Shown here: positions 16,133-56,835 of the stretch, piece after piece
Layout: every line of letters starts with the position of its first letter
Numbering within the stretch: position 1 is the first letter of the stretch
Source: Buchnera aphidicola (Schlechtendalia chinensis)
Lineage (GTDB): Bacteria; Pseudomonadota; Gammaproteobacteria; Enterobacterales; Enterobacteriaceae
Length of the DNA: 64,000 nucleotides
Reading direction: 5' to 3'
NCBI RefSeq assembly: GCF_001648115.1
Contig: NZ_CP011299.1
Coordinates: forward strand, 62,001 to 126,000
The notes under the pieces: model-generated
Told to the model about the DNA's origin: nothing
What the model saw: the letters and a program-made list of their open reading frames with translations, nothing else
The model's database searches: none
Program-made: the position numbers and the translations under genes

Positions 16133-16575
16133 ATGTTTAAGAATAAGACAATAATTAATTTGCTGAAAAATATAGATAAAAAAAAAATCAAAAGTTATCT
16201 CTTATATTGAAAACTATAATTTTGAATAAGGACAAAATTCAAGATCGAGTTGATATATTGTCAAAATATAAAGAAGAATATTTGTCTAAGTTGAATGTTA
16301 AAGTATCTGATGGAATTTTTGGTTTTGAATTAAAAAATTATGATTATTTTATTACATCATTAATCCATGATATAAGTAATCAAATAGAAGCAATAAAAAA
16401 ATTTGAGAAACAGTATAAAACGTATTTTTTATTGTGGAGAGATAATCAATATAGATTAAAAATTTGGGAAATAATGTCTAAAAAGTTATTAAATTATGAT
16501 TTTATGATGTTGCAATTAGAAGAACAAAATCAAATTGATGAATATGTTCAAAAATCTTGTTTTAAAAGGAGATAA
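16133..16575 (+). CDS. fliJ: Flagellar export chaperone/ATPase stalk FliJ, frame interrupted at poly(A)
   Basis: FliJ inserts in the FliI ring and assists substrate delivery. The ATG at 16133, 16 bp after fliI, opens a frame (MFKNKTIINLLKNIDKKK) that meets TGA at 16208-16210. The rest of FliJ continues in another frame: YKEEYLSKLNVKVSDGIFGF, then LLWRDNQYRLKIWE and DEYVQKSCFKRR, matching E. coli YQNEYRNNLNSDMSAGI, NSWREKKQRLQAWQ and DEFAQRAAMRK. The switch lies at ten A (16178-16187). Adding one A restores 147 residues, the E. coli length. A shorter 122-residue protein could begin at TTG 16207, but that would drop the conserved N-terminal helix. Confidence 0.85.
16178..16187 (+). repeat. A10 homopolymer, frameshift site in fliJ
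   Basis: Ten consecutive A on the coding strand after codon GAT. The frame upstream and the frame downstream differ by one; an 11-A version would join them. Confidence 0.9.
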
Positions 16576-16587
16576 ATTTTTATTGTT

Positions 16588-17794
16588 ATGTCAAATACTA
16601 TAAATATAGATTCGAATATTTCGTATACTATAAACGAGCGCAATTTTAATAAATGGTTTTCTAAAAAAGATAGCGAACTTTTTTTAAAAATTTTAAATAA
16701 AAGTTTAATTGTAAAAAAAAATAATATTGAAATGTATAGTACAAATAAGGACAATATAATAAAGATTTTTTCTGATACTTTTTCATTAGTTGATAAAATT
16801 CGCAGGAAAAATATTTTTTTTGAAAATAAAAAAAAAACCTTTGATCTTGCCACGTTCTTATGATTTTATTAAAAATAATATATTCTATATAAAACATGTA
16901 GAAAAATTTTTAAAATCAGAAAAATTGTCTAAAATTCTTATAATTGATAATTATATAAAAAAATATTGCTTGGCGTTTTTAAATGACAGTAAAATTAAGA
17001 ATAATTGTATAATTTTAGATATGTTCCGTAGGAATTTTAAATTTTTTCGTTCTTTAAATCCTTTTTTAAAACATAATATAAAAAATGTATCTCCAAAATT
17101 TTTTAATCTTATAAATTTTAATAGTAATTTTTTTAAATTAAAAGATAAAATTCTTCAATTATTTTTGAATATTAAATCTGGAATAGTTTTAAATAATTCT
17201 TTAAAAAATAAAATACATTATAAAGAATGTATTAATTCAATAATAAATTTTTTACATCCAACATATGCGTTTATAGATATTTTTGGAATTAATAATAAAA
17301 TTTTTTTTAAAAAGTTAAGTAGTTTTTTATTTCATAATAATAGTTCCAATTTGATTCATGGAAATTGGATGAAAGCTGTTCAAAACCAGCTATTGACGTT
17401 CTTTTTAAATAGTAAAAAAAATGTAGAATTTTTTTTAAGTCCACAATATTTAGGGCGTTTATTTATACGTTTAAAATTAAAAAGAAAGAAATCAATTCAA
17501 TTAAATGTAATGTCTGATAATAAAATTGTCAGAAAAGCTTTAAGATCTAACGTTAATAATTTTCGAAATACTATCTTCAAAGTTGGAATTAAGTTGGAAA
17601 ACATTACTATTACAAATAATAAAAATGTTAGAGAAGCAAGTGTACTTGAAAATAGTCAAAATTTTCGAAATAATGTAATAGATAATGTTTTTCATATTAT
17701 AAATAAAAACGTGTGTAAAAATTTTTATGGATCCTGTTTTTCAGAATTGCATTTTTTTCCTGAGCATAAAAGTGTTATTAATTTTTACATTTGA
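16588..17794 (+). CDS. fliK: Flagellar hook-length control protein FliK, frame interrupted at poly(A)
   Basis: FliK measures hook length and switches export specificity. The frame from ATG 16588, 12 bp after fliJ, gives MSNTINIDSNISYTINERNF and continues to ENKKK before ending at 16863. The adjoining frame continues PLILPRSYDFIKN and carries the diagnostic C-terminal domain near residues 255-345: WMKAVQNQLLTFFL, FFLSPQYLGRLFIRLKLK and a VRKALRSNVNNFRNTIFKVG segment. The junction is a run of ten A at 16828-16837. Losing one A (or gaining two) joins the halves into about 401 residues (E. coli 375). The middle is low-complexity Lys/Asn/Phe, as expected for this fast-evolving protein. Confidence 0.82.
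16828..16837 (+). repeat. A10 homopolymer, frameshift site in fliK
   Basis: Ten consecutive A where the N-terminal frame of fliK must pass to the frame encoding the C-terminal domain; nine or twelve A would give one continuous frame. Confidence 0.88.
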
Positions 17795-17936
17795 TTTAAA
17801 ATGATAGTACTTTTAAAATTTTTAAAGAAGTTAAATTAATTGTTATGTCTAATAATGTTCTTGTTAGTTTAAAATAAAATTGATATTTTATGTTTTTAAC
17901 TCTTTTTTAGATTAATATTAGTTTTAAGGTATTTTA

Positions 17937-18878
17937 ATGACAAATAATGTTATTTTTAAAGTTAAAAAGAACAATTCAATAAATAATATTGAAAGAAAGT
18001 CAAAAATTTGTATTTATAATTCAGATTTTGATTATTTTACAGTTCGTGGAATAAATAGATCTTTAATGGAAATTTGTAATTTTTTTTCGAAACAAATTTC
18101 TTTAGATTTGTTTAATATTATAAATTATAAATTTAAGGTCAGATTACAAGACATTAAATTAGTCAAATATGATAGTTATAGAGAATGTCTTTTAAATTCA
18201 AAGTTTTCTAATTATTTTAATATTTCTTCTAACTTAGAAAAGGGAATAGTAAGTTTTTCAGATAATATAATATTTACTATTATAGACATTTTATTTGGAG
18301 GTTCTAACACTTGTCGTGTTTCTGAGAATTATGTATATGAATTAAACATGTCTGAACTTAACATTATGAAAAAGATATTAAAATCTGTTCAAAAGTCGTG
18401 TAGTTTGGCGTGGAAACAAACGTTGAATACAGATTTTGAAATTTTTAATTTTACATTAATATCAAAAAATAATTTTTCAAACGTTTTTTCTAAAAAAAAT
18501 GTTTTTTTATGTACTATTTTTAAAATACAATTTCATAATACATGTGGTTTTTTAAATATATATTTTCCTTGGAATTTTCTAAAAAATATTAAAAATCGAT
18601 TATTAAATAAAAATTTTAATAATAATAGTGAAAAAAAATTAAAAAAAATATCATCCAAAGTTATTTATGATATAAAAATTGATTTAGATGTTCATTTAGT
18701 AAATTTTTCATTATCGTTACCTGAAATATTAGCATTAAAGACAGGAGATATTATTCCTATAAGTACTCCAGAAGATGATATTATTGCTTATTCCAACGAT
18801 ATACCTTTATTAATAGGAAAATATAAAATTTATAAAAAGAAACATGCTTTTCTCATGAAAAATTTTTTTAATAAATAA
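17937..18878 (+). CDS. fliM: Flagellar switch protein FliM
   Basis: A C-ring subunit joining FliG to FliN. It has 313 residues (E. coli 334). The CheC-like middle domain is recognisable: FTVRGINRSLMEICNFFSKQ, FSDNIIFTIIDILFGG and LNIMKKILKSVQKSCSLAWK. The C-terminal SpoA-like domain has LSLPEILALKTGDIIPISTPED. The N-terminal CheY-binding peptide of E. coli (SQAEIDALL) is absent; here the start reads MTNNVIFKVKKNNSINNIE. A 142-bp gap separates it from fliK, so it may have its own promoter, as fliL is also missing between them. The start ATG is the only plausible one. Confidence 0.92.
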   Translation: MTNNVIFKVKKNNSINNIERKSKICIYNSDFDYFTVRGINRSLMEICNFFSKQISLDLFNIINYKFKVRLQDIKLVKYDSYRECLLNSKFSNYFNISSNLEKGIVSFSDNIIFTIIDILFGGSNTCRVSENYVYELNMSELNIMKKILKSVQKSCSLAWKQTLNTDFEIFNFTLISKNNFSNVFSKKNVFLCTIFKIQFHNTCGFLNIYFPWNFLKNIKNRLLNKNFNNNSEKKLKKISSKVIYDIKIDLDVHLVNFSLSLPEILALKTGDIIPISTPEDDIIAYSNDIPLLIGKYKIYKKKHAFLMKNFFNK

Positions 18879-18905
18879 TTAGGTATCTATTGCTAAGGAA
18901 CATAA

Positions 18906-19295
18906 ATGACTAACAAAAATAATGCAGATGACAATAAAAATAATGAAATTATTAATACAGTAAATGTAGATCTAAATAAAAAAATAGATAAGAAAGGTAT
19001 TAGTGAAGTAGCTTTAGAAAAAGTTAAAAAAAAATATAAAAATATAAATTTTCTTGTTAATGTTCCTATTAACATTAAAATTGAATTAGGAACTTTAAAA
19101 TTGAAAATAAAGGATTTACTTAATTTAAGTACGGATTCGGTGTTAACTTTAGACAAATATTCAGGAGAACCTTTAAATATATTAGTAAATGAGAGTATAA
19201 TTGCAAAGGGAGAATTAGTTATTGTAGAAGAAAGGTATGGTATTAGGATTACTGATATTATAGATAATTCAAATAGTTCGAACTGTTTGAACTAA
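18906..19295 (+). CDS. fliN: Flagellar switch protein FliN
   Basis: The basal C-ring subunit, which also docks FliH. It has 129 residues (E. coli 137). The C-terminal SpoA domain is clear from about residue 50: FLVNVPINIKIELGTLKLKI, LLNLSTDSVLTLDKYSGEPL, NILVNESIIAKGELVIVEE and YGIRITDII. The N-terminal third is a charged, low-complexity linker. The ATG at 18906 follows AAGGAAC by a few nucleotides. It lies 27 bp after fliM and 27 bp before fliO, in one transcription unit. Confidence 0.95.
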   Translation: MTNKNNADDNKNNEIINTVNVDLNKKIDKKGISEVALEKVKKKYKNINFLVNVPINIKIELGTLKLKIKDLLNLSTDSVLTLDKYSGEPLNILVNESIIAKGELVIVEERYGIRITDIIDNSNSSNCLN

Positions 19296-19322
19296 TTATT
19301 TAAAAATCATGAGAAATTATTT

Positions 19323-19691
19323 GTGTATACTACATTTTCATCTAACTTTTTAAGAACATTATTTTCGCAATATGGAATGTTGTTTTTTAAAATAGTAACA
19401 GTTATTTTAATATTTTTTTGGGTAATTAGAAAAATTATTCTTGAAAAGAAAATAATTAATAGTTCATCGATTAGTATTGTAGAAAAAATTCCGATAGGAT
19501 CTAGTGAAAATATTATTATTATAAATTTAAAAGAAGTAAGATTGGTTTTAGGTGTTACTTCAAAAAATATTTCTCTTTTATATACATTATCGCCTAAAAA
19601 AGAACAAAGTAAAAAAACATTGTTAGTTAAAGCTGTTAAAATCGATGATGCAATAAAACAGTTTGCTAAACGCATTGGAATAAAAAAATGA
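19323..19691 (+). CDS. fliO: Flagellar export protein FliO
   Basis: A small bitopic membrane protein that helps assemble the FliP export-gate ring. It has 122 residues (E. coli about 121), with a GTG start at 19323. One membrane helix lies near residues 19-36 ([18 protein letters not shown]). The cytoplasmic part has [19 protein letters not shown] and [16 protein letters not shown], which correspond to the family pattern of a VGxxE/RLVLGVT-like core. Position between fliN and fliP is the strongest support. The end overlaps fliP by 4 bp (ATGA). The ribosome site is weak (GAGAA about 10 nt upstream). Confidence 0.85.
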
Positions 19692-20422
19692 TTTATCAAA
19701 CAATATCACTATTTTTGCTATTATTATTTTGTCCTGAAGTACATGCTGAAGTATCTAATTTATTTAGTAGCACATTACTAGATGGGGGTCAAAATTGGTC
19801 TCTTCCATTACAGATGTTAATATTTATTGCATCATTAACTTTTATTGTTCCAGTTATTTTAATGATGACAAGTTTTTCTAGAATTATTATTGTATTTGGT
19901 TTGTTGCGTAATGCCTTGGGGACTCCTTATTCTCCTCCCAATCAAATTTTATTAGGTTTGTCTCTTTTTTTGACTTTTTTTATTATGTCTCCAGTGTTTG
20001 ATAAAATTTATAAAGATGCATATTTGCCATTTAGCGAAGATAAGATTAAAATGGATGTAGCTATTAAAAGGGGAATTAAGCCTTTGCATAATTTTATGAT
20101 TAAGCAAACTCGTGAAAATGATTTAGTTTTTTTTTCAAAGTTAGCAAAAATTTCTAATTATTCTAAAAAAGAAGATGTGCCGATGCGAGTATTATTGCCA
20201 TCTTTTGTTACTAGTGAGTTGAAAACAGCTTTTCAAATTGGATTTACTATTTTTATACCTTTTTTAATAATTGACTTAGTAGTTGCTAGTGTTTTAATGG
20301 CATTGGGTATGATGATGGTTCCTCCTTCAACTATTTCGTTACCATTTAAATTAATGTTATTTGTTTTAGTAGATGGTTGGCAATTACTTATTACCTCTTT
20401 AACTCAAAGTTTTTTTAATTAA
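19688..20422 (+). CDS. fliP: Flagellar export gate protein FliP
   Basis: The core subunit of the membrane export gate. It has 244 residues (E. coli 245). A cleavable-type signal peptide is visible ([20 protein letters not shown]). It is followed by the highly conserved [40 protein letters not shown] and [19 protein letters not shown] blocks, a periplasmic loop, and the terminal helices with [19 protein letters not shown]. Conservation is strong through all membrane segments. It overlaps fliO by 4 bp and precedes fliQ by 68 bp. Confidence 0.97.
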
Positions 20423-20490
20423 GTTTTAAAGTTTAGATATTGCATTTAATAGTAAGTACTTTTAAAGTATTTAAAATATTAAGGAAATGT

Positions 20491-20760
20491 ATGACAGTGG
20501 AATCTGTAATGACTATTTTTCATGAGGCTATAAAAATTTCTTTAATGCTTGCTTCACCTTTATTGATATCCGCATTATGTAGTGGATTAATTATTAGCAT
20601 TTTACAAGCTTCTACTCAAATTAATGAACAAACATTATCATTTATTCCAAAAATTATTACAGTCTTATTATCTATTGTTGTTTTTGGGCCATGGATGTTA
20701 ACTTTAATTGTAGATTACACTCGGTCTTTATTTAACAATTTGTCTTTAATAACTAATTAA
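20491..20760 (+). CDS. fliQ: Flagellar export gate protein FliQ
   Basis: A two-helix subunit of the FliPQR export gate. Starting at ATG 20491 (MTVESVMTIFHEAIKISLML) it has 89 residues, equal to E. coli, whose protein begins MTPESVMMMGTEAMK. A longer in-frame extension to 20440 is non-homologous. AAGGAAA lies just upstream as ribosome site. The helices and the conserved loop TQINEQTLSFIPKI are evident, followed by the GPWMLTLIVDYTRSLF end. It shares one base with fliR (TAATG). Confidence 0.96.
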   Translation: MTVESVMTIFHEAIKISLMLASPLLISALCSGLIISILQASTQINEQTLSFIPKIITVLLSIVVFGPWMLTLIVDYTRSLFNNLSLITN

Positions 20761-21533
20761 TGATAACTTTTAATATAAATGATTTAATTTCTTTTTTTTA
20801 TAATTTTTTCTATATTTCAATTCGAATTTTATCTTTTTCTTTATCTGCTCCATTGTTAGGAGATAAGTCAATTCCAAAGAAAATGAAAGTTTTTGTTTCA
20901 TTCATTATGAGTTGGTTTTTTATGCTTATTCTTCCTGTAGTAAACATTGATTTGTTTTCTACTGATGGATTTTTAATATTGGTTGAACAAGTTTTAATTG
21001 GTACACTCTTAGGGTTTTCTATGCAGTTAGTATTTTCTGCTATAAAAATAGCGAGTGAAGTTATTAGTTTTCAAATGGGTTTATCATTTTCATCTTTTTT
21101 GGATTGGAATACTCGTTCTAATACACCTATATTATCTCGCTTTTTTTATACGTTTTTGATATTACTTTTTTTAGAATCTAATGGTCATATTTGGATGATT
21201 TCAGCATTGATTGATACTTTTCATAAAATTCCAATACGAAAATTTGAACTAAATTTGAATATGTTTCTTAAAATTGTTATATATTCGAAATTTATTTTCA
21301 TAGATAGTTTTATAATTATGCTTCCAATTATGATAGTGCAGTTGATTTTGAATATTTCAATGGGAATTTTAAATAGAATTTCTTCTCAAATTTCTATTTT
21401 CTCTGTTGGATTTACTGTTACATTGATAGTAGGAATGTATACTTTATTTTTATTTGTTCCAATAGTTCCAAAAATTTATAATAACATATTTGATCGTTTG
21501 ACATTTTTATTGTCTTTTTTACTAATATCATGA
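20760..21533 (+). CDS. fliR: Flagellar export gate protein FliR
   Basis: A membrane subunit that caps the FliPQR gate. It has 257 residues (E. coli 261). It shows about six hydrophobic segments, with the conserved RILSFSLSAPLLGDKSIPKK near the N-terminus, GTLLGFSMQLVFSAIKIASE and FQMGLSFSSFLDWNTRSNTP in the middle, and LNISMGILNRISSQISIFSV and FTVTLIVGMYTLFLFVP toward the end. It is the last gene of the flagellar run. flhB and flhA are not in the window. A bidirectional terminator-like inverted repeat follows at 21755. Confidence 0.96.
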   Translation: MITFNINDLISFFYNFFYISIRILSFSLSAPLLGDKSIPKKMKVFVSFIMSWFFMLILPVVNIDLFSTDGFLILVEQVLIGTLLGFSMQLVFSAIKIASEVISFQMGLSFSSFLDWNTRSNTPILSRFFYTFLILLFLESNGHIWMISALIDTFHKIPIRKFELNLNMFLKIVIYSKFIFIDSFIIMLPIMIVQLILNISMGILNRISSQISIFSVGFTVTLIVGMYTLFLFVPIVPKIYNNIFDRLTFLLSFLLIS

Positions 21534-22253: not shown

Positions 22254-22441
22254 AGTTTGAAATTATCCTATATGTTATTAATAAAATTTATTTTCGAAAA
22301 TATTTTCTTAAAAATGTGCTTAAGGCATTATCATAAAATTGTTTTAAATTTTTATTTGATGTATAACATTTGATTATGTTTTGTACTTTAATTTAATATT
22401 TAAAAATTATAGATTAAATTTTGTTGATAGGACTTACTTCA

Positions 22442-25177
22442 ATGGTTTTTTTAAAAAAGTTTTTGATATCTATAATTTTGTTATGTTTATTTTTCTTATT
22501 TAGTTTAATATTCTTAATTTATAGCCATGTTGGATTAAATATTGCGTGCTATTTAGTAAATCATTATATACCAGAATTGAAAATAAAGAAGTCTATAGGT
22601 AGATTAAATAATTTTGTTTTAAAAGATGTAAGCTATTATTCTAACGATAAATGCATTCTTATTAAAGAACTGTATATAGAAATGAGTTTTAATTTTTTAA
22701 AAAATTTTTATGTTAATGTGAATAATTTGTTACTTAAAAAGTGTAGTATAAAAATTTTTTGTAATTCTTTTAAAAAAATTAGTAAAAAAGAGTCGCTTTT
22801 TAATTTAAAAATTTTTTCTTTTTTAAACTTTCCTATTAAATTTAAAAATACAAAATTTAGTGATATATCTTTTTCTATTAATAGTCTTTTATTAACACTA
22901 GATTATGGTATTGGGGAATATTACTGGAACGGGAAAAAGTTAGAATGTTTACATAGCAAAGTTGATAATATTTATGTTAAAGAATGTACAATAAAAAATG
23001 TAAAAGAAAAATTACATAATAAAATTATAGTGAACAAAAATTTTAATTTTAAGAAAGAAATTAATTATTATTTAAATTATTTAAGAAAAAGTAATTTTAG
23101 AATTCCTATTTTTTTTGATATAAAAAATTTTTACAGTGATAACATTTATTTTTTTAATAAATGCAAAACTAGATTTTCACAATGTTTTTTAAATTTTACA
23201 CTCGATAATGATAAAATAGATATAAAAAAACTTCATATTTTAAGTCGTTATTTTAAAATTGACATTTTTGGGGTTTACAATTTTTGCAAAGATTTTTATT
23301 TTAATTTTTTTTTAAATTGTGTTTATTTTAAACATGATCGAAGTAAAGAACATATTCATGCTAATATTCATGGGTTTTTATTAAAAAATTTGAGTATAGA
23401 TTTAAATTTTCATGGTTTTATAAAGTCTAGAATATATATAAAATTTTTCTTTAAAAATAAAAGTTCTAATTTATGTTCAAAATTATTGATTCCATTTTTT
23501 ATCATAAAAAATGATCATAAAATTATTTTTTCTTTAAAAAGTACTATAATTCAAGTGTTAGGAAATTTAGAAAATTATCATTATTCTTTAAATACTATTA
23601 TAGATATAAAATCATTAATTCCAGTACATCTATATATTTTAGGAAGAGGTAATCATTCTTGTATATTTTTTGAAAAAATAAAATATGTTTTTATGAAAAA
23701 TGCAATAACTTCCAAAAATTTATTAAATTTTTTTAACAAAAAACGATTAAATTATTCGACATTGGTAGATGGAAGAAATAATGATTTTGACATAAAATTT
23801 TTGTTAGAAAATGTCATACATGTTTTTTCTAATTTTAAAGAAAGGTATGATGTATTTTTTGATATAAAATTTTTGTATAAGTATGGTGTTTTTAAAAATT
23901 TAAACATTAGATCAAAATCTCATTTCTTTGAAATTTGTAATCGATGGATAATTTCTACAATTAATAAAGTTTTAAAGAAAAAGAACTTTTCTTCGATTAA
24001 TAGATTTCAGCGAGAAAGTAATATAGACGTTTTTTTTAAATTAAAAAGTGTGAATAATGTTTACTCTAATTTTTTAGTAAACATTAATGGGAATGTTTCT
24101 ATTGAAAATAAAAATGATGATTATAAGATTACAATAAAAATTTTGGGAAATCACTTGATTTCAAAATTCTTTAACATTTCTAATTTTTCAATAATGTTTA
24201 AAAAAAATAATTCTCACATGGTTACAGTGAATTTATCAGTCAAAGATTTTACTATTTTAAATTTCTATATTTCTTCTTTTTGTCTTAAATTTAATAATTA
24301 TAAAATTAGACATAATTTTTATTTAAATGTTTTAAGAAATAGTCATATTTTTACATTATGTTTAAACGGGAAATATAACACATTATCAAAATTGTGGATT
24401 GAAGAAATAAATAGCGTATATTTTTCTGTGCCATTATTTAATATAAGTTTAAAAAAAATATTTTTAATATTTTATAAAAACGATATTACTAGTAATTTTT
24501 ATATATTTTCGTTTTTAAATGATTTTTTATTTACAAAAACGTTGACATATTTGACTAAAAACACCATTAATATTATCAATACTAATGTAGTAGAAAAAGC
24601 AATTTTTTTTCTAAATAATTTGCAATCTTTTTACAGATTTAAAAAACCTTTTACATGCGAAGTTAAATGTATTCTATATAATTTTGGTGATTTTAAAAAA
24701 TGGACATTAAAATGGAATTTTGAAATTAAAAATGAAAATGAAAAAAGTGAATTTTTTTTTGGATTATTGAAATTTTATAGAGTTGACGAAACAATATTTT
24801 TTTTAGGTAGCTTTGAATTTGAAAATGTTACAATATCTCTTTTAAAATTTTTATCAGAAAATTTCAGAATTTTGTCAGGAAAATTTTATGGAACATTAGA
24901 AATGAATGATATATGTAGTTTTAAGTTTTTTTGTGATTTATTAATTAAAAATCTTTTAATTAATGGTTTTTTTAATATAAACAATTTACATATTAGTAAT
25001 ATAGTATTTTTAACTAATTTCGACGATACTTTTTTTAAGAGTTTTACTATTACTCAAAATTGGTATAACTTTATATTTAATTTTAAATTTTTACAATTTT
25101 GTTCTTTAAAAAATAAATTAGGACAATTTTTTATTATTAAAGTTTTTCGAATGCCGTTTTATAGGATCAATTTTTAA
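22442..25177 (+). CDS. tamB: TamB-like AsmA-family envelope protein, shortened
   Basis: TamB spans the periplasm and bridges inner and outer membrane for lipid transport or outer-membrane protein assembly. From the ATG at 22442 the product is 911 residues, against 1259 in E. coli. The N-terminus shows a signal-anchor (FLKKFLISIILLCLFFLFSL) followed by YSHVGLNIACYLVNHYIPEL and the IGRLNNFVLKDVSYY, ELYIEMSFNF, NNLLLKKCSIKI pattern that parallels E. coli TamB. The remainder is a Phe/Asn/Lys-rich beta-repeat sequence that has diverged greatly. The C-terminal DUF490-type end is not obvious. No tamA lies upstream, where E. coli has it. Confidence 0.78.
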   Translation: MVFLKKFLISIILLCLFFLFSLIFLIYSHVGLNIACYLVNHYIPELKIKKSIGRLNNFVLKDVSYYSNDKCILIKELYIEMSFNFLKNFYVNVNNLLLKKCSIKIFCNSFKKISKKESLFNLKIFSFLNFPIKFKNTKFSDISFSINSLLLTLDYGIGEYYWNGKKLECLHSKVDNIYVKECTIKNVKEKLHNKIIVNKNFNFKKEINYYLNYLRKSNFRIPIFFDIKNFYSDNIYFFNKCKTRFSQCFLNFTLDNDKIDIKKLHILSRYFKIDIFGVYNFCKDFYFNFFLNCVYFKHDRSKEHIHANIHGFLLKNLSIDLNFHGFIKSRIYIKFFFKNKSSNLCSKLLIPFFIIKNDHKIIFSLKSTIIQVLGNLENYHYSLNTIIDIKSLIPVHLYILGRGNHSCIFFEKIKYVFMKNAITSKNLLNFFNKKRLNYSTLVDGRNNDFDIKFLLENVIHVFSNFKERYDVFFDIKFLYKYGVFKNLNIRSKSHFFEICNRWIISTINKVLKKKNFSSINRFQRESNIDVFFKLKSVNNVYSNFLVNINGNVSIENKNDDYKITIKILGNHLISKFFNISNFSIMFKKNNSHMVTVNLSVKDFTILNFYISSFCLKFNNYKIRHNFYLNVLRNSHIFTLCLNGKYNTLSKLWIEEINSVYFSVPLFNISLKKIFLIFYKNDITSNFYIFSFLNDFLFTKTLTYLTKNTINIINTNVVEKAIFFLNNLQSFYRFKKPFTCEVKCILYNFGDFKKWTLKWNFEIKNENEKSEFFFGLLKFYRVDETIFFLGSFEFENVTISLLKFLSENFRILSGKFYGTLEMNDICSFKFFCDLLIKNLLINGFFNINNLHISNIVFLTNFDDTFFKSFTITQNWYNFIFNFKFLQFCSLKNKLGQFFIIKVFRMPFYRINF

Positions 25178-27893: not shown

Positions 27894-28738
27894 TTAATGT
27901 GTAGTGTGTTTGTATAACATATTTTTAGATGCTTTGTGCAATTGAGCTGTGACTTTTATAGCTGTTTTTAATGGTAAATGAGATTGTAGTATTTGTAAAG
28001 TTTTTAAAACTTTTTTAGATAAATATGATTTTGTTTTTATTTGATATCCTGAAATAATTATAGTTATTTCTCCTTTCATTTTTATTGTATTATTGTTAAG
28101 CCATAATAATATATTTTTTGATGTGTCTCTTCGGATGAGTTCCCATTTTTTAGTTAATTCTTTTGCTAAAAAAATCTTTCTATCGCATCCTAGTTCTTTA
28201 ACTATATCTTTAATACTAGAAATTATTCTGTGGGGGGTTTCATAAATTATAATAGTTCGATTTTCTTGTTTTAAACTACTTAATAATTTGCGTCGAGAAT
28301 TGCTTTTGGATGGTAGAAAACCTTCATAGCAAAATTTACTTGTGGATAATCCTGAAGCGCTCAAAGCTGTAATAGCTGCACATGGTCCTGGTAAAGGAAC
28401 AATGTGTATTTCAAATTGATGGCAATAATTAATTAAAATTTTCCCCGGATCGTTAATTACTGGAGTTCCAGCATCAGAAACTAATGCAACGTTTTCTCCA
28501 TTTTTCAATTTTATGAGTAATTTTTTACTTTTATTTTTTTCGTTATATTTATTTAGAGATATAATTTTTGTAGAAATTTCATAATTTTTTGTCAATATCT
28601 TAGTTCGATTTATATTTTCTCCTGCAATTACGTTTACTTTTTTCAGAATTGAAAGTGCACGAATAGTAATGTCAGTTAAATTTCCAATAGGAGTAGGAAC
28701 AATATATAATATTCCTTTTTTTTTATCGAATTTTTCAT
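27894..28738 (-). CDS. rsmI: 16S rRNA 2'-O-ribose C1402 methyltransferase RsmI, frame interrupted at poly(A)
   Basis: Methylates the ribose of C1402 in 16S rRNA with S-adenosylmethionine. The core from about 28714 reads GILYIVPTPIGNLTDITIRA, then ENVALVSDAGTPVINDPG, VPLPGPCAAITALSASGLS and FCYEGFLPSKSNSRRK, very close to E. coli RsmI. No ATG opens this frame. The ATG at 28738 reads MKNSIKKK in another frame into nine A (T9 at 28716-28724 on plus). One extra A joins the two, giving about 281 residues (E. coli 286). A 233-residue form from TTG 28595 would lose the SAM-site PTPIGNL motif, so it would not be functional. Confidence 0.85.
28716..28724 (-). repeat. A9 homopolymer (minus strand), frameshift site in rsmI
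   Basis: Nine T on the plus strand, nine A on the coding strand, between the only nearby ATG and the conserved YIVPTPIGNL segment. Ten A would make one frame. Confidence 0.85.
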
Positions 28739-29053
28739 AATTTTCTTGATATTAAACTTATAAGGTAAATGAGAACAATTTTACTATTTTAAAATTAGTT
28801 TGTAGTTTTTTAAAAATAATTTAGAAATTTAAATTTTTAAAATTATAAATGTGAATTTAGAGTTTGTACTATTTTTAAAATGATTTGATATTTTTTTTCT
28901 AAACTTTTTGAGTTTTTTAATATTTAGTGATAAATTTTTCGTCATCATACATAAAATATTATTTTAATTTTAATAATACTATTTAATAAAATTGTTTTAT
29001 ACAACTTTTTGATAAGTATTGTAATTTCAAAGTTAAATAGCAGAGGTACTGAA
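28739..29053. other. Divergent intergenic spacer rsmI-fabB
   Basis: 315 bp of AT-rich DNA between divergent genes, so it must hold both promoters; I cannot pick out unambiguous -35/-10 boxes in this composition. The only clear element is the fabB ribosome site AGAGG at 29042-29046. Confidence 0.5.
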
Positions 29054-30273
29054 GTGAAGAGAGTAGTAATTACTGGATTAGGAATAATTTCTAGCATTGG
29101 TAACAATAAAATGGAAGTACTTTCTTCTTTATTGGATACTAAATCAGGGATTTCGTTTTCAGAAGAAATGAAAAATTTTGGATTACGTAGTCATGTACAT
29201 GGAAATATAAAACTAGAAATATCTCAATGTATAAATCGTAAAATGATGAGATTTATGAATGATGCATCAATATATTCTCATTTATCCATGGAAGAAGCTA
29301 TTAAAGATGCTAATTTAACACCTAAAATGTATCAAAATAATCCTAGAGTAGGTATAATTGTCGGTTCTAGCTCTGGATCACCGAAATATCAATTTAATGG
29401 TATTAAATTTATGGAGCGTCGGGGATTGCGTTCAGTTAGTCCATATACAGTGATTCAATCTATGACTTCTAATATATCAGCATGTTTAGCAACTTCTTTT
29501 AAAATACATGGAATTAATTATTCTATCAGTTCGGCGTGTTCTAGCTCAGCTCATTGTATAGGTAATGCAATGCTATTGATACAATTAGGACAGCAAGATA
29601 TTATATTTGCTGGAGGAGGAGAAGAAATTAGTAAAGAATTGGCATGTGCATTTGATGCACTAGGAGCGTTGTCAACTAATTTTAATTTAAGTCCTTTATC
29701 ATCGTCTAGAGCATTTGACTATTATAGGGATGGATTTGTTATTTCAGGAGGTTCTGGAATAGTAATTATGGAAGAGTTGAATTCTGCATTATCTAGATCT
29801 TCTCATATATACGCGGAAATTGTTGGATATGGTACATCTTCTGATGGGTACAATATGGTCGTTCCTTCTGAAGATGGTGCGATTAGATGTATGAATTTAG
29901 CTATCAATAAAATTAGCAAAAAATCTATTGATTATTTAAATGCACATGGAACATCTACTAAAATAGGTGATTTAGTAGAATTAAATGCTATTAAAAAAGT
30001 TTTTTATGATGTTTGTATGCCTGTAGTTTCGTCAACTAAATCTATTACTGGACATGCGTTAGGTGCATCAGGTGTTCAAGAAATAATATATAGTTTGTTA
30101 ATGCTTGAAAACGATTTCTTAGTTCCTAGTATTAATATTACTAAACTAGATTCTGCAGCAGAAGATTGTAATATTTTGATCAATTCTGTAAAAAAAAAAA
30201 TTCTGTAATTATGTCGAATAGTTTTGGCTTCGGAGGTACGAATGTTTCTTTAATTTTAAGAAAATATTGTTAA
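29054..30273 (+). CDS. fabB: 3-oxoacyl-[acyl-carrier-protein] synthase I (FabB), frame interrupted at poly(A)
   Basis: Condenses malonyl-ACP with acyl-ACP in fatty acid elongation. The GTG at 29054 (ribosome site AGAGG 8 nt upstream) gives MKRVVITGLGIISSIGNN. The nucleophile is Cys162 in SISSACSSSAHC; the catalytic histidines are in NAHGTSTKIGD and SITGHALGASG. The frame stops at 30208 after a run of eleven A (30190-30200). The missing C-terminus, VIMSNSFGFGGTNVSLILRK, follows immediately in another frame, to TAA at 30271-30273. Twelve A would give 406 residues and an ungapped fit to E. coli FabB (406). Without correction the GFGGTN active-site loop is lost. Confidence 0.95.
30190..30200 (+). 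repeat. A11 homopolymer, frameshift site in fabB
   Basis: Eleven A on the coding strand. The upstream frame reads KKKIL then stop; with one more A it reads KKKNSVIMSNSF and joins the conserved C-terminus. Confidence 0.95.
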
Positions 30274-47662: not shown

Positions 47663-48242
47663 ATGATATTAAGTGATAAAGACATTGAATTATGGTTAAA
47701 AAAAAAAATTGTTTATTATTCCTTCTCCGAGTACTGAGTTAATTCATGGAGTGACTGTTGACGTGCGTTTAGGTAATCAATTTTATACTTTTCGAACAAA
47801 TAGGAACAGATACATTGATTTAAGTAAATCTAAACATTATACATCTATGATGTTAAAAAAAATAATGAATAAAAAAAAAGTTTTATCAGATAGTGATAAG
47901 TTTTTTTTGAGACCTCAGTCTTTAGTATTAGCAATGACTTTTGAAAAAATTATTATGCCGAATAATTTAGTAGGATGGATAGATGGACGTTCTTCTTTAG
48001 CACGATTAGGATTGATGATTCATGCTACTTCACAGCGTATAGATCCAGGTTGGAATGGTAACATTGTATTGGAGTTTTTTAATTCTAGTAACGTTACATT
48101 GTCATTATGCCCAGGGATGTTGATAGGGGCTCTCAGTTTTGAAACATTATCTAGTCCATCGTTAAGACCATATAATACTAGAAGAAATTCTAAGTATTTA
48201 GGCCAAAACGAAGTAATATTAAGTAAGATATACGAGGATTAA
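47663..48242 (+). CDS. dcd: dCTP deaminase, frame interrupted at poly(A)
   Basis: Converts dCTP to dUTP for thymidylate synthesis. The ATG at 47663 opens MILSDKDIELWLKKK, which aligns with E. coli MRLCDRDIEAWLDEG, then hits eleven A (47698-47708) and stops out of frame at TGA near 47736. The conserved remainder follows in another frame: IIPSPSTELIHGVTVDVRLG, FFLRPQSLVLAMTFEK, VGWIDGRSSLARLGLM, RIDPGWNGNIVLEF and PGMLIGALSFE. Removing one A gives 192 residues and adding two gives 193 (E. coli 193). Without correction the N-terminal strand of the trimer would be missing. Confidence 0.92.
47698..47708 (+). repeat. A11 homopolymer, frameshift site in dcd
   Basis: Eleven A directly after the TGGTT of codons Trp-Leu. 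The conserved N-terminal start and the IIPSPSTE continuation are in different frames that only ten or thirteen A would join. Confidence 0.92.
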
Positions 48243-50249: not shown

Positions 50250-51554
50250 TTAGTATTTGTTTTGTATCCAAGACAGTTTCCATTCTTTTATATTTGTATG
50301 ACATTTTTTTTTAGACACGACAAAAACTCCTAACGCGCTTATTAATTCATTGTTATAAAATAGTAAAGGAATTTTATTTCGGTTCCATGGAGCAATTCCG
50401 TGATCTTGCCATATTTTCTTAATAGGTTTTCGCATCGAGTTTCCTTGAATTAAAATTTTCCCAGATGTTTGAAAACGGATGTTGATTAGTTCATTTGGTT
50501 TTGGCAAAGGGAGTATAGTTCCAAATTTATTTTGTGTAATACATCCTAAATTATGAGGTAGTTTTAAACTAATCATGGGTTTGTACCACATGATAATCAA
50601 ATTTTTTATGCAAGGAATAATTTTTATTAAATGCAAATTACTTTTATATCGTTTTACTTCGTAATCTCCGATTTTAATCTTTGCTTTAGAATCTTTTTTG
50701 GATAAGATTATTTCATAGTATATTTTTTTTACAACTTTATGTGAGGGAATTATATAACTGTTTGATTTTATCCACGTTCTTAACAAAGAGTATATGGTGT
50801 CCGGAAGTAATTTTTCAAAGTTTTCAATATCTAAGATTGAGCTTAATATAAGATATTTATCAAGATTATTTTTTAAAATAGGATCTAGAATTTTTTTTTC
50901 TTTTTTTAAAATAAAAGAACTTTTTGCACAATTTTTTATAAAACTTGGCCATCTTTTTGTAAGAAGTGGTAAAATTTTATGTCTTATGAAATTTCTATCA
51001 TGTTTAACATCGTAATTACTTTCATCTTCTATCCAGTTCACATTATTTTTTTTTATCCAATTCTCGATTTTTGATCGTGGTGTTTTTAATAGTGGTCTTA
51101 CAATAAGTTGTTTTCCGAATAATTTGCTTTCATATGGTATTCCGCTTAATCCTGTTATTCCACTTCCTCTTTTTAAAGCTAATAAGAAAGTTTCACACTG
51201 ATCGTTCAAGTTATGTGCTGTTAAAATTATCTCTTTTTGGAATACTTGTTCATATATTTTTTTATAACGTTCTAATCGAGCAGACGCTTCTATTCCTATT
51301 TTATTTTCTTTTACTTTTATTTTTTTAATTATTAATGGAATGTTGTGCTTTTTACACACGTCATAACAATGTTTACTCCATTTTCCCGAATTTTTGTTTA
51401 ATTGATGGTTGATGTGGATTGCTCGGAACTTTAATTTTGGATTATTGTCTTTTATTCTTAATAGTTTAAAAAATAAAAAAGTTGAATCTAAACCTCCGCT
51501 ATATGACAGTAAAAACGAAAGATTTTTTGTTTTTTTTATATATGTTTCGATCAT
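50250..51554 (-). CDS. tilS: tRNA(Ile) lysidine synthetase
   Basis: Converts C34 of the CAU-anticodon tRNA-Ile to lysidine, so that AUA is read as isoleucine; this matters greatly in an AT-rich genome full of AUA. It has 434 residues (E. coli 432). The ATP-binding SGGLDST motif is at residues 19-25. HINHQLNKNSGKWSKHC, TAHNLNDQCETFLLALKRG, GLSGIPYES and NYDVKHDRNFIRH follow. The C-terminal domain is present (PIKKIWQDHGIAPWNRNKIP). The gene contains an intact nine-A run (50891-50899 on plus). It is upstream-flanked by tRNA-Val(GAC). Confidence 0.95.
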   Translation of the reverse strand: MIETYIKKTKNLSFLLSYSGGLDSTFLFFKLLRIKDNNPKLKFRAIHINHQLNKNSGKWSKHCYDVCKKHNIPLIIKKIKVKENKIGIEASARLERYKKIYEQVFQKEIILTAHNLNDQCETFLLALKRGSGITGLSGIPYESKLFGKQLIVRPLLKTPRSKIENWIKKNNVNWIEDESNYDVKHDRNFIRHKILPLLTKRWPSFIKNCAKSSFILKKEKKILDPILKNNLDKYLILSSILDIENFEKLLPDTIYSLLRTWIKSNSYIIPSHKVVKKIYYEIILSKKDSKAKIKIGDYEVKRYKSNLHLIKIIPCIKNLIIMWYKPMISLKLPHNLGCITQNKFGTILPLPKPNELINIRFQTSGKILIQGNSMRKPIKKIWQDHGIAPWNRNKIPLLFYNNELISALGVFVVSKKKCHTNIKEWKLSWIQNKY

Positions 51555-51603
51555 TAGGATTTAATTTTTTCAAAATTTTAAAATTAACTATTTTAAAAAT
51601 TTA

Positions 51604-51676
51604 TGTGTCTGAGTGGATTTGAACCACTGACTTCCACCTTGTCGTGGTGGCACTCTACCAACTGAGTTACAGACAC
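51604..51676 (-). tRNA. valV: tRNA-Val (GAC), with C at position 33
   Basis: The reverse strand folds as a full 73-nt cloverleaf: acceptor GTGTCTG/CAGACAC, D stem ACTC/GAGT with loop AGTTGGTA, anticodon stem CCACC/GGTGG, T stem AGTGG/CCACT with loop TTCAAAT, and discriminator A. No CCA is encoded. The anticodon loop is ACGACAA, so the anticodon is GAC, but position 33 is C, not the near-universal U. The location beside mdtK matches valV/valW in E. coli, whose loop is TTGACAT. With tRNA-Val(UAC) also present, a weakened GAC reader may be tolerated. Confidence 0.88.
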
Positions 51677-51743
51677 AAAAAAATATATAAACTAATATTA
51701 TATTTAGTTTTTTTTATTTGCAATATAAATTTTTATTAAAACA

Positions 51744-53105
51744 CTAATTTTTACATATTTTCGATATAGTACAAAGAGATAATATTCTATAAAAAGTCAT
51801 CATTGATGATGCAACTAGTGAAATAAAGATTCCAATCCAAAAGCCTGTTGCTCCTATTCTTGGTATGATAGTGTCGGTTAATGCTAACAAGTATCCGATA
51901 GGAAAACCTAGAATCCAGTAAGATATACATGTAATTATAAAGATCATACGAGTATCTTGATAACTTCTTAAAATTCCGTTTCCTATAATTTGAAAAAAAT
52001 CAAAAGTTTGATATGCTGCTGCGATTAGCATTATTTCTTTTGTTTTTTTTATAATATTTGTGTTTTTGGAATATAAAGAAATTATATCGTTACAAAATAT
52101 AAAAATAATTATTGATATTATAGTAGATAAAATTAGTCCTATAGTTTGTGATGATATAACAATAGTAGAGATTTTTTTTGAGTTATTTTTACCTAAGTAG
52201 AACCCAATTCGAATACTGGCTGCTGTTCCTATTGAGAGTGGAAGAACAAAGATAAATGAACTAACATTCAAAACAATTTGATGTGCTATGATTTGATTAA
52301 TATTTAAAGATGCTATTAATAATGTTATTAGAGTAAATAATGAAACTTCGAAAAATAATGATAAGGCAATTGGCAGTCCTATTTTTGATAAATTTTTAAT
52401 AATTTTCAAGTTGGGTAAATATGTATAGTTTTTTATGCAATTTTTTTTTAAAGTTGAAAAACTGTTTTTAGTTATTTTTTTCATTAATAAAAACATGAAC
52501 CAATATATTATTATTGTAGAGAGAGCACATCCTAGATGTTTAAAATGAGGTAGTAGTATTTGTTTTTGTACTAATAAATAGTTTATTGTTATGTTTGAAA
52601 TAAGTCCTATTATTCCTACTATCATAGCTGGTTTAGGTTTGGACAATCCTTCACATTGATTTTGTATTACTTGGAAGTAGAGATAGCCTGGAGTACTCCA
52701 TAGCAACGTTCTGATATAACTAATACTTTTCTGTTCTATTACCGGATTAACGTTGTTTGTTATATTGATAATATAGTGAGAATTCCAAAGAATTATCATA
52801 ATTATTATTGCAATTATCGTTGCTATCCAGTATGCATTTATAACTTGATTGTGAATTTCATGTTTTTTACCTGAACCATTCATATATGATATTGCAGGTA
52901 CTAAAGATGATAGTAATCCATGCCCAAACAAAATGATTGGATACCAAATTGATATTCCGATTGAAATAGCAGCGATGTCAGTGTCACTTAGAGATTGTAC
53001 TACAGTATTGTTCACTAATCCGATACTAATTTGTGATATTTGTGCTAACATAATAGGGGCAATTATTTTAAACAAGTTTTTCATTTCTATTAAATATTTT
53101 TTCAT
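51744..53105 (-). CDS. mdtK: MATE-family multidrug/sodium antiporter
   Basis: A twelve-helix inner-membrane exporter driven by Na+ or H+. It has 453 residues (E. coli MdtK/NorM 457). It matches E. coli in IAPIMLAQISQISIGLVNNT, IAAISIGISIWYPIILFGHG, SYMNGSGKKHEIHNQV and YLYFQVIQNQCEGLSKPKP. Two repeats of six helices are evident, and GTAASIRIGFYLGKN-type sequence marks the second half. The minus-strand gene is divergent from ribE, as in E. coli. Retention of a drug-efflux family protein in a tiny genome suggests a physiological solute or cofactor export role (inference). Confidence 0.94.
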   Translation of the reverse strand: MKKYLIEMKNLFKIIAPIMLAQISQISIGLVNNTVVQSLSDTDIAAISIGISIWYPIILFGHGLLSSLVPAISYMNGSGKKHEIHNQVINAYWIATIIAIIIMIILWNSHYIINITNNVNPVIEQKSISYIRTLLWSTPGYLYFQVIQNQCEGLSKPKPAMIVGIIGLISNITINYLLVQKQILLPHFKHLGCALSTIIIYWFMFLLMKKITKNSFSTLKKNCIKNYTYLPNLKIIKNLSKIGLPIALSLFFEVSLFTLITLLIASLNINQIIAHQIVLNVSSFIFVLPLSIGTAASIRIGFYLGKNNSKKISTIVISSQTIGLILSTIISIIIFIFCNDIISLYSKNTNIIKKTKEIMLIAAAYQTFDFFQIIGNGILRSYQDTRMIFIITCISYWILGFPIGYLLALTDTIIPRIGATGFWIGIFISLVASSMMTFYRILSLCTISKICKN

Positions 53106-53376
53106 TTCTAACCTTTTATATTATGAAAGCTTTTCGCGATAAAAAGTTAAAGATTTAATAATAAGACATGTTATTTAAAAGTTTTCGATTTTTTAAAGCT
53201 GTATTTCATGCTTTCTATTATAATTGTGTTTATTTTCAATTTTTTTTGAGTTAAAGTAAGTATACGTTTTTTTTATATGGAAGTAGTTAATATTAATTAA
53301 ATGTAATTTAAAGTATTTTTTAGTAAAGTTTTAGGCTTAAAAAAATGTTTTTGTATTATATGACATTAGGAATTAT

Positions 53377-53985
53377 ATGTTTACTGGAATTATTCAAGAT
53401 ATTGCAAAGATAATACGGATAAGAAAATTTGATAATTTTATTAAATGGGTCTTACAATTTGATAAAATTAGTACTAAAACGTTATTATTAGGATCCTCTA
53501 TATCATGTAATGGATGCTGTTTGACTATTAATGAAATTGAAAATAATACAGTAAGTGTTGATCTTGTTCAAGAAACTCTAAAATTAACAAATTTTATAAA
53601 CTTTGTCGAGAATCAAGAAATTAATATTGAAAGATCTGTAAAATTTGGAGGAGAAATTGGAGGTCATTTAGTATCTGGACATGTCATGACGACTGCAAAG
53701 ATTTCAAAAATTGTTGTTTCTAATTATAATAAGGAAATATGGGTAAAATTAGATAACTTTTTTTTTATGAAATATATTTTTTACAAAGGTTTTATATGCA
53801 TTGATGGAATAAGTTTAACAGTTGGAAATATTAATAAAAACGTATTTTGTGTATCTTTAATTCCAGAAACATTGTCTCATACTACTATTGGAAAAAAAAG
53901 ACTTGGAGATTTTGTCAACATAGAAATTGATTATCTTACTAAAGTGATAGTAGATAGTACAAATCGATTAATTTCAAATATTTAA
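53377..53985 (+). CDS. ribE: Riboflavin synthase alpha subunit
   Basis: Dismutates two lumazine molecules to give riboflavin. It has 202 residues (E. coli 213; the gene is called ribC in some E. coli maps). It has the N-terminal MFTGIIQ signature and two lumazine-binding repeats: the first with SCNGCCLTINEIENNTVSVD, the second with FICIDGISLTVGNINKNVFC. The linker reads GGEIGGHLVSGHVMT, and the end has GDFVNIEIDYLTKV. It is divergent from mdtK and upstream of the rnf cluster, and works with ribB at the left edge. Confidence 0.96.
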   Translation: MFTGIIQDIAKIIRIRKFDNFIKWVLQFDKISTKTLLLGSSISCNGCCLTINEIENNTVSVDLVQETLKLTNFINFVENQEINIERSVKFGGEIGGHLVSGHVMTTAKISKIVVSNYNKEIWVKLDNFFFMKYIFYKGFICIDGISLTVGNINKNVFCVSLIPETLSHTTIGKKRLGDFVNIEIDYLTKVIVDSTNRLISNI

Positions 53986-54118
53986 TGAAAATATTTTAGA
54001 TATATGTATTATAAAAGAGTAATATAAAAGTTTTTAGTATTTTCCTGGATTCGCGAGAAGTTTTTAGATGTTTATTTTTTTGGAATTTAAAATTTAAAAT
54101 TTAGGTGTATATTAAACT

Positions 54119-54697
54119 GTGAATTATTTTTCATTTTTTTTAAGTAATATTTTAGTAAACAATTTAGTTTTGACACAATTTTTAGGATTATGTCCGTTTA
54201 TGGGGACGTCCAAAAAGTTTGTTTCTGCAATGGGGTTAGGATGTGCTACTGTTTTTGTAATAACGTGTACATCAATTATTATTTATTTAATTAATTCTCA
54301 TGTCTTAGTACTGTTAAATTTAGAATGTTTAAGAATTATGACTTATATGTTGATAATTTCAGTTAGTGTGCAAATTGTTGAAATAATAATGAGAAAAGTT
54401 AGTCCTGTTTTGTATAGGTTATTAGGTATATATTTATCCTTAATAACTAGTAATTGTTCAGTATTAGCTATACCTTTATTAAGTTTGCATTTAAATTTTA
54501 GTTTTTTTGAATCATTTTTATACGGGTTAAGTTCTTCTATTGGATTTCTTTTGATTTTAGTTATTTTTTCTAGTATAAGAGAACGTTTATCTTTGTCTGA
54601 CGTTCCTATTCTATTTAGAGGAAACCCGATTGCTTTAATTACGGCTAGTTTGATGTCTGTTGCGTTTATGGGATTTAGTGGCTTAGTAAAAACATGA
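54119..54697 (+). CDS. rnfA: Rnf/Rsx electron transport complex subunit A
   Basis: A membrane subunit of the ion-translocating Rnf complex that links NADH and ferredoxin. It has 192 residues (E. coli RsxA 193), starting at GTG 54119, which aligns with the E. coli start; the ribosome site is weak. Conserved: [40 protein letters not shown] with a conserved iron-binding Cys, [20 protein letters not shown] and [15 protein letters not shown]. Six membrane helices. It overlaps rnfB by 4 bp and starts rnfABCDGE. Confidence 0.96.
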
Positions 54698-55215
54698 TTT
54701 TTTTTTTATATTCTATACTTTTTTTTAGCGCTTTGAGCGTTTGTTTAGGATTTATAGTAAATTTTGTAACATATAGATTTCATATAGATGCTGATCCTAT
54801 AATAGAAAAAATTGATGAACTTCTTCCTCAAACACAATGTGCACAATGTGATTATCCTGGGTGTTACTCTTATGCTGTTGCAATTGTGGAAAAAAATGAA
54901 AAAATAGATAAATGTATTCCTGGTGGAAATGAAACAGTTTTAAAAATTGCAAATTTGTTAAATGATGATACGTTGCAGTATGATAATTTAAATTCTTCTG
55001 GAGATACTTTTTTTAAAACAGCTGTAATTGATGAAGAAAATTGTGTTGGTTGTTCTAAATGTAGACTAATTTGCCCTGTAGACGCTATAATAGGAACTTA
55101 TAACTTTACGCATACAGTTGTTAAAAATATGTGTACTGGTTGCAATTTATGCATTTCTTTATGTCCTACTAATTGTATTAGAGAAAAAATAACATACAAT
55201 GAAAATTTTCACTAA
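54694..55215 (+). CDS. rnfB: Rnf/Rsx electron transport complex iron-sulfur subunit B
   Basis: Carries electrons between ferredoxin and the membrane part of Rnf. It has 173 residues (E. coli RsxB 192). An N-terminal membrane helix ([19 protein letters not shown]) precedes the 4Fe-4S binding pattern [20 protein letters not shown] with CIPGG. Two ferredoxin motifs follow: [12 protein letters not shown] and [12 protein letters not shown]. All cluster cysteines appear present. It overlaps rnfA by 4 bp and rnfC by 17 bp. Confidence 0.96.
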
Positions 55216-56835
55216 CTTTTTTAATAAGTGTGGTAATTTAGCTAATAAAGTTATAAAACTATATTTTAATTGTATTAAAACAATATTTTCCCCCAAAAAA
55301 ATGAATGATTTTTATGGAGGAATACATTGTAATTCTATGAAAAATAGCTCATGTTTTTCTAAATTAAGTTATATTCCTCTTCCAGAAACGTTCACTGTTT
55401 TAATAGATCAAGAATTAGTTTCAAAAAAAAAATTGTAGTATATATAGGACAAATAGTCTTTCGTGGTCAAGTTTTAGCCTTAGGTAACGACGATATTGCT
55501 CCAATTCATTCTCCTACGTCTGGTACAATTTCTAGTATTTCTAAAAATAAGTTTAATTTTTATTCAGGGAAATATTTTGGTGTTATTGTTATTAAATCTG
55601 ACGGAAGAGATGCGTGGGGTCATCGAGTTTTTAGAAAAAATTATAAAGATATTAGTATTAATACATTTATTAAATTAATTTATGATCATGGAATTATTGG
55701 ATTAGGAGGTTCTGGATTTTTATCTTCTAAAAAGATAGAATTTTCTATTGGAAAAGTACATACTTTGCTAATAAATGCTGCTGAAAGTGAACCTTATGTT
55801 CAATCAGATGATTGTTTAATGCAAAATTTTTATAAAGAAATAGCTGAGGGATGTCAAATTATTGCATGTATTTTAAAAATTGAAAGCGTTGTAATCGCTA
55901 TAGAAGATGATAAGAAATTAGCATTTATCAAGATTAAAAATGCAATTAAATCGTTTCCTAATTTCAAAATACGAAAAATAAAAAATAAATACCCTTCAGG
56001 GAGTAGTAAACAATTAATCAAAACTTTATTTAACAAAGAAGTCCCGTTAGGAAAACGTTCAATAAGTTTAGGGATACTTATATTTAATGTTTCTACTATT
56101 TTTTATATTAAAAGAGCAATTTTAAATAGCGAACCATTAATAGAAAGGATTATAACTCTTTCAGATGCGCAGCTGTTGTATCAAAAAAATGTTTTAGTTA
56201 GAATAGGTACTCCAATTAGCTACATATTATCAAAGTTTAATATTAAAAATTCTTCTATCATTTTAGGTGGACCGATAACTGGATTCATTATTGATGATTT
56301 GAATTTTCCAATTTTAAAAACTACTAGTAGCATTTTGAAATTCAAATCGGATTTTGTGGAAAATTTATTAGAACTTCCATGTATTCGTTGTACAGCTTGT
56401 TCTAAAGCGTGTCCAATGCGATTATTACCGGAACAGTTATATTTTTATAGTAAGTCTTTTGATCATGAAAAATCAAAAAGATATCATATTAATGAATGCA
56501 TTGAATGTGGAGTATGCGAACAAGTATGTCCGAGTAACATTCCTCTCTTAACGTATTTTAAAAAAGAGAAATTAGAATTAAAGAAATTAGAGTTTCAGAA
56601 TGATATGTCTAAGAAATTTAAGAAATTGTTTATGCTACGTCAACGTAGAGTGCATGCTTCAGGATTGATTAATGAAAATATTATATATTCTAACAATGTT
56701 ATAAAAGAAAAAAGAAACGATAGTATTAGACATAAAGTTTGTGAATCTAATTCTTTTTTAAATTCCCAACATATAATGAAAATAAAACTTGAGTCTGCAA
56801 TAAATAGAGCTAAATTAAAAAGAAATATTAAGTAA
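55199..56835 (+). CDS. rnfC: Rnf/Rsx electron transport complex subunit C, frame interrupted at poly(A)
   Basis: The NADH-side, FMN- and Fe-S-containing subunit. The ATG at 55199 gives [29 protein letters not shown] and [19 protein letters not shown], then stops at 55438 just after ten A (55423-55432). The next part continues in another frame: [51 protein letters not shown] and [14 protein letters not shown]. The two 4Fe-4S motifs are [12 protein letters not shown] and [12 protein letters not shown]. One extra A makes about 545 residues. E. coli RsxC is 740, but its excess is a C-terminal Ala-rich tail absent here. Confidence 0.92.
55423..55432 (+). repeat. A10 homopolymer, frameshift site in rnfC
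   Basis: Ten A on the coding strand; the frame before reads SKKKL-stop, and with eleven A it reads [11 protein letters not shown] and continues through the conserved barrel-sandwich and NADH-binding domains. Confidence 0.93.

Follow-up and report, generated by a model that had tools for sequence, protein, structure and literature searches.

Probably old frameshifts at long adenine runs in working genes of Buchnera aphidicola from Schlechtendalia chinensis, and their likely rescue by transcriptional slippage

In Buchnera aphidicola of Schlechtendalia chinensis (assembly GCF_001648115.1), protein-coding genes are split between two reading frames at long runs of adenine. The window analyzed here is a stretch of 64,000 nucleotides, bases 62001-126000 of the single contig NZ_CP011299.1 (607,835 bp), and contains six such genes, fliJ, fliK, rsmI, fabB, dcd, and rnfC, each broken at a coding-strand run of nine to eleven adenines (A9-A11) with conserved sequence on both sides, as an earlier note on this DNA had described with coordinates and names that hold throughout (Table 1). 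Comparison with related genomes suggests, with a probability of roughly 0.7, that tracts of this kind are real and often old frameshifts in genes still used, and that they are rescued by transcriptional slippage. Many of the lesions look old and tolerated in working genes because they recur across species, because the sequence beyond them is under purifying selection, and because the genes that carry many scattered lesions are degenerate ones. The earlier interpretation had run along the same lines, and the non-decay pattern, the recurrence, and the constraint beyond shared lesions bear it out, though lesions private to this genome (in the window, those of fabB and rsmI) rest on weaker evidence.

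The comparison set consisted of ten other genomes of the same genus, with a clade of nine species and with G008 and G010 as outgroups. Relatives include the Buchnera of Schlechtendalia peitan (G009), Nurudea yanoniella, Meitanaphis flavogallis, Chaetogeoica yunlongensis, and Baizongia pistaciae (G010), hosts that are taken here to be gall aphids. In a tree of 21 proteins, G009 is the sister of the S. chinensis symbiont (G000, hereafter the own genome) at 75% identity, and G004 and G007 form the closest pair at 93% identity, with a synonymous divergence (dS) of about 0.2. Open reading frames (ORFs) of the relatives were mapped onto the DNA with a frameshift-aware aligner, fliJ and rsmI were read from the DNA in those relatives having the gene, and gene names were taken from Pfam and NCBIfam profile matches.

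In all nine clade species, fliJ is out of frame alike at one and the same tract, which follows a constant N-terminal part of 45 nt, is 10 nt long (A10, or A9G in G009), and precedes 122 aligned codons without a stop or an indel. In the outgroups the gene is in frame and the tract is absent. An A10 in nadD gives the same out-of-frame state in eight of the nine species, and the sole species in frame, G003, is the only one in which the tract is interrupted. Lesions at the same tract were also found in ftsI (7/9 species), ispE (6/9), murF (six species), ackA (four), and ribF (three), and those of rnfC and mraY are common to the own genome and G009, rnfC being split at an identical A10 in both. The comparison of tract length and frame across sister Buchnera that the earlier note had proposed thus reveals persistence of the lesion for fliJ, nadD, ispE, ftsI, rnfC, and others, but not for fabB, which is in one frame in 10/10 relatives and broken in the own lineage only. 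The out-of-frame state of fliJ and nadD would most simply be ancestral. For several of the recurring tracts, repeated breakage instead of one ancestral event is possible, since the tract lengths of ackA and murF differ between neighbors. Out-of-frame tracts of the own genome are retained in the sister G009 in 14 of 21 cases, as compared with 48 of 191 in-frame tracts (p = 0.0002).

Selection beyond the shared lesions was assessed in the pair G004-G007, where the ratio of nonsynonymous to synonymous substitution rates (omega) is 0.13 for ispE, 0.07 for ftsI, 0.19 for murE, and 0.28 for nadD. The 88 reference rows of this pair without a large shift have a median omega of 0.14 and a maximum of 0.39; two of these rows are parts of ispE and ftsI, and the 86 rows without them have a median of 0.145 and the same maximum. 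For the dead segment of tamB, omega is 1.13 and 19 stops are present. Between the own genome and G009, a lesion is shared by rnfC, murF, ackA, mraY, and ribF. These genes have zero downstream stops at 67-76% identity, and their codon-position pattern resembles that of 263 intact genes. Genes with shared lesions are, by these measures, non-eroding and under purifying selection, which shows that the encoded protein beyond the lesions matters; the omega test is silent on how the frame is restored.

The lesion survey covered 103 genes in nine species, giving 927 gene-by-species cases, of which 836 are free of lesions, 78 have one, four have two, and nine have three or more. An A or T run of at least nine is found within 20 nt in 60 of the 78 single-lesion cases, compared with 3.3% of coding positions, and 14 of the 15 non-tract single lesions are within 60 residues of an end of the query ORF. 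As a rule, then, the lesion is a single indel in a long A or T run with both sides otherwise intact. In the nine degenerate cases, which include rnfC of G002 and tamB of G004 and G007, only 3 of 73 lesions are near a run of this length, about the background share. One lesion per gene had been put forward as unlike the scatter of decay, and the degenerate genes confirm this by carrying many lesions, mostly off the runs. In the scans from which the census below was compiled, ORF-edge artefacts (L027:6683, L028:1097, L042:10079, L091:14322, and L099:2454) were removed by hand, and short ORFs with at least two shifts were excluded by rule; one run table from these scans still contains such artefacts. 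The second half of tamB carries 15-16 frameshifts each in G004 and G007. In G002 the region of rnfA, rnfB, and rnfC (L050 17674-19751) is degenerate, and the genes are found in the other species, so that Rnf appears to have been lost in one lineage.

A census of the own genome, compiled by hand over 440,000 of its 607,835 bases (72%), found 24 out-of-frame tracts in 23 genes (ribF, ispE, ackA, mraY, murF, ftsI, fabZ, emtA with two tracts, bioD, rsmC, pncB, ybeY, nadD, recC, fabB, dcd, rnfC, ung, tusE, murG at an A8, fliJ, fliK, and rsmI). The six splits that had been noticed in one 41-kb span are all present, but they are not special to it: 18 of the 24 fall in other parts of the 440 kb, which rules out a 41-kb island of frameshifts. 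Similarly, the statement that lesions always fall in poly(A) holds for the six, but mraY, elsewhere in the genome, is split at a coding-strand T9. The out-of-frame share grows with run length, from 5/151 at A9 to 16/61 at A10 or longer, in a scan that left out fliJ and ptsI; its corrected counts may still be underestimates for tracts at which every reference has the same break. At length nine the share is similar for T runs (1/37), and only two coding T runs of at least 10 were covered. Of the A10 windows in the own genome, one strand has 75 and the other 28, possibly owing to the orientation of genes or to strand skew. Two genes of the NAD pathway, nadD and pncB (L044 and L040), are each frameshifted at an A10 there. 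Cell-wall genes are often affected, with murE, murF, mraY, murG, and ftsI each homopolymer-broken in at least two of the nine species; a near-complete loss of the cell-wall pathway is reported for the sampled Eriosomatinae (PMC9116674), unlike the symbionts studied here, where these genes are present. Whole Buchnera genomes have been published with 1-18 such frameshifts each (PMC3164680), so the tract count found here is a high one, provided that similar criteria were applied.

Judged from the DNA, transcriptional slippage appears to be the best mechanism for these tracts. RNA polymerase would slip on runs of about 9-12 adenines, producing a fraction of mRNAs with altered length, and this fraction would allow some full-length protein to be made despite the frameshift in the DNA. 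Such rescue would weaken selection against changes in tract length, so that runs could drift out of frame and persist, with the out-of-frame state of fliJ and nadD having reached full or near fixation across the clade. Among 30 distinct tract-states counted by hand in the nine species, 22 belong to the class corrected by one added nucleotide (p = 0.016). In Buchnera, 151 of 157 measured insertions are in homopolymers, and insertion is the dominant direction of slippage (PMC5574713). Corrected transcripts are cited as making up 12-50% for cell-wall genes of aphid symbionts and a gene of an ant symbiont (PMC5009743), and a full-length share of about 30% is also cited (PMC5009743; PMC3017870).

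Several results weigh against this account. The same study that measured slippage in Buchnera detected no transcription error restoring a frame (PMC5574713). The direction bias is weaker in the own genome by itself (17/24, p = 0.064), and a mutation or calling bias toward shorter runs would also produce it. Being in frame is still the majority state of own runs of A10 or longer (45/61). Constraint on fliJ is weak in G004-G007 (omega 0.47 over 131 codons), the upstream part of murE gives an omega of 1.23 in the same pair (61 codons), and two lesions each were found in ftsI of G001 and in the own emtA. Retention of out-of-frame tracts in G005 is not clearly different from that of in-frame tracts (8/21 and 42/191, p = 0.09), and once tract age was controlled the retention contrast in the nine species (2.25 and 1.58 of 4) was no longer significant at p = 0.08, which weakened tract retention as a signature.

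It has also been considered, tentatively and with the odds somewhat against it, that fliJ and nadD may be obligate frameshift genes. Long A runs would in that case have changed from a mutational hazard into a fixed decoding site setting a low product dose, and a run could be lost only if the frame were regained with it, the nadD gene of G003 being the example. Among the nine clade species, no fliJ is encoded in a single frame, and nadD is so encoded only in G003.

Slippage has to be weighed against ribosomal -1 frameshifting at an A AAA AAA slippery site, which would join the two frames while leaving the mRNA unchanged. The heptamer is present at these tracts since any A run of at least nine contains it, and most out-of-frame tracts (the 22 of 30 above) are in the class correctable by a -1 shift, so that the protein would be the same in most cases. 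Yet 7 of the 24 own tracts belong to the other class and would not be corrected in this way, and in none of the five sequences that were folded (rnfC, fabB, and fliJ from three species; z -0.60 to 0.85) does a structure after the tract beat shuffled sequences. In the programmed frameshifting of dnaX, an A-rich slippery site within the gene joins two frames; the present case differs in showing no stimulatory structure in the five sequences tested and in involving many genes instead of one. Ribosomal frameshifting is considered an unlikely source of the full-length products.

A second alternative is that homopolymers were undercalled in the assemblies and that no frameshift exists at these tracts in the real DNA. 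The direction bias is toward short tracts, as undercalling would give, and the omega test does not separate undercalling from rescue, given that omega tests alone would look identical if tracts were miscalled. What speaks against undercalling is that all nine species with the fliJ tract and all eight with the nadD tract are out of frame alike, while most own runs of A10 or longer are in frame. Moreover, the A10 of ribF exceeds the in-frame A9 of four species, and published Buchnera genomes list frameshifts of this kind (1-18 each; PMC3164680). Some of the lesions are repeated in independent genomes: those of fliJ and rnfC in other species, that of dcd in another record, where the protein is likewise short (130 aa, as compared with 193 in relatives), and that of fabB with another length. 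In a second record (a 389,096-base contig), FabB is nearly identical, with two amino-acid differences by eye, and fabB is also out of frame there, in the third frame. The in-frame tract would be one nucleotide longer than the A11 found here, and the tract of the second record, judged by its frame, is one shorter (or two longer), a difference between records of nearly the same protein that favors miscalling at this site. Cross-genome repeatability thus speaks against miscalling for fliJ and nadD and less so for fabB. Undercalling as a general explanation is regarded as quite improbable; miscalling is above all a concern for private lesions such as fabB.

If the lesions instead marked recent pseudogenes heading for loss, as Buchnera does lose genes, then private lesions (e.g., fabB, bioD, rsmC, pncB, and recC), which have no age estimate, would be the natural candidates. 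The shared lesions do not fit this well, as they recur at 56-76% protein identity with no erosion. Downstream of the lesion, 14 own-lesion genes have accumulated 362 changes in the own genome and 343 in the sister (8319:6688 in 263 intact genes), which gives no pooled acceleration, and the ratio varies by gene (28:17 in rsmC and 54:38 in rnfC). Genes of this clade that are truly degenerate have another appearance: tamB of G004 and G007 and rnfABC of G002 show scattered lesions with relaxed selection, and the genes at issue do not. Incipient loss is thus highly unlikely to account for the pattern. Buchnera is highly polyploid, and tract lengths could also be mixed among genome copies, with in-frame copies supplying the product; the differing fabB lengths of the two records would suit this, whereas the species are nearly uniform in the states of their fliJ, nadD, and ispE tracts, unlike what freely mixing lengths would give, and this makes it a very improbable explanation. 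Separate production of the two parts by re-initiation, with the parts acting as split proteins, is hardly credible even though long open frames follow the tracts, because in all nine species the downstream frame of fliJ is open only 27 nt ahead of the aligned part, and where the own genome has a candidate TTG start the other species have TTA.

Rescue by slippage would not be new in kind. Tamas and colleagues in 2008 and Wernegreen and colleagues in 2010 reportedly described, in Buchnera and Blochmannia, genes that are frameshifted at poly(A) and rescued by transcriptional slippage. The literature to which the earlier note alluded does report such rescue, and the rescued genes resemble those found here in having one homopolymer indel in an otherwise intact gene and in being, for some, conserved between species, with cell-wall genes included (PMC3017870; PMC5009743; PMC3164680). 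The present set differs in belonging to another Buchnera clade, in having more tracts (24 in 72% of the genome), and in containing two genes whose out-of-frame state is universal or almost so among the clade species. In Citrobacter rodentium, tssM1 is also broken at an A run (A11) and undergoes +1 transcriptional slippage at about 20-25%, a mechanism demonstrated there by tract interruption and by the mass of reverse transcription polymerase chain reaction products (PMC4256274). The part thought to be new is the clade-wide out-of-frame state of fliJ and nadD. Supplements aside, neither gene occurs in the 20 papers listed of 169 that matched a search on Buchnera homopolymer frameshifts, and the main text of PMC3164680 does not name fliJ, nadD, ispE, ftsI, or ackA.

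If confirmed, this finding would mean that gene-content studies that discard all frameshifted genes misjudge the capacities of symbionts. In one such study, a script removed frameshifted coding sequences, and Aphidini Buchnera were then counted as having lost murF, murC, and/or murE; cell-wall labeling was nevertheless demonstrated for the Buchnera of one of these aphids (PMC9116674). Poly(A)-frameshifted yet working mur genes would be one explanation for this labeling. Within the nine-species set, fliJ, nadD, ispE, and ftsI offer ready test genes.

For the six genes of the window, the direction of the shift given in the earlier note agrees with the ORFs of relatives and with the reading of the DNA, and the ptsI run that it had named as a control is in frame. 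The source genomes whose ORFs place the two sides of the run in different frames number 10 of 10 for fabB, eight for rnfC, seven for dcd, and two for fliK, and a single ORF of G009 covers both parts of fliK. The run in rsmI is present as described, but it is start-proximal, about five codons past the only nearby ATG; from the preceding stop to the conserved part, the rsmI frame contains no ATG, GTG, TTG, ATT, or ATA. In G002 (L049), an A run may likewise put the rsmI start out of frame, with an alternative TTG start possible.

Table 1. Genes split at adenine runs in the window, with one in-frame control (window positions; runs given for the coding strand).
Gene	Position	Strand	Run	Remarks
fliJ	16133..16575	+	A10 16178-16187	45 nt before the run; C part, open over 130 codons, matches Pfam FliJ
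fliK	16588..17794	+	A10 16828-16837	C part matches Pfam Flg_hook
rsmI	27894..28738	-	A9 (T9 28716-28724)	Run just past start codon; NCBIfam 16S rRNA C1402 methyltransferase (RsmI)
fabB	29009..30273	+	A11 30190-30200	Final ~25 residues in another frame; NCBIfam beta-ketoacyl-ACP synthase I
dcd	47663..48242	+	A11 47698-47708	Split after ~13 codons; NCBIfam dCTP deaminase
rnfC	55199..56835	+	A10 55423-55432	NCBIfam RsxC/RnfC
ptsI (name from the earlier note)		-	A10 (T10 4095-4104)	In-frame control, within an open 572-aa ORF

Two further loci of the window were noted in passing. A tamB-like gene at 22421-25174 is open in the own genome, with 918 aa and no Pfam match at 0.01. At 19359-20419, two frames of the own genome (probably fliO and fliP) correspond to one open frame in the Buchnera of Baizongia (G010, L065 5533-6615).

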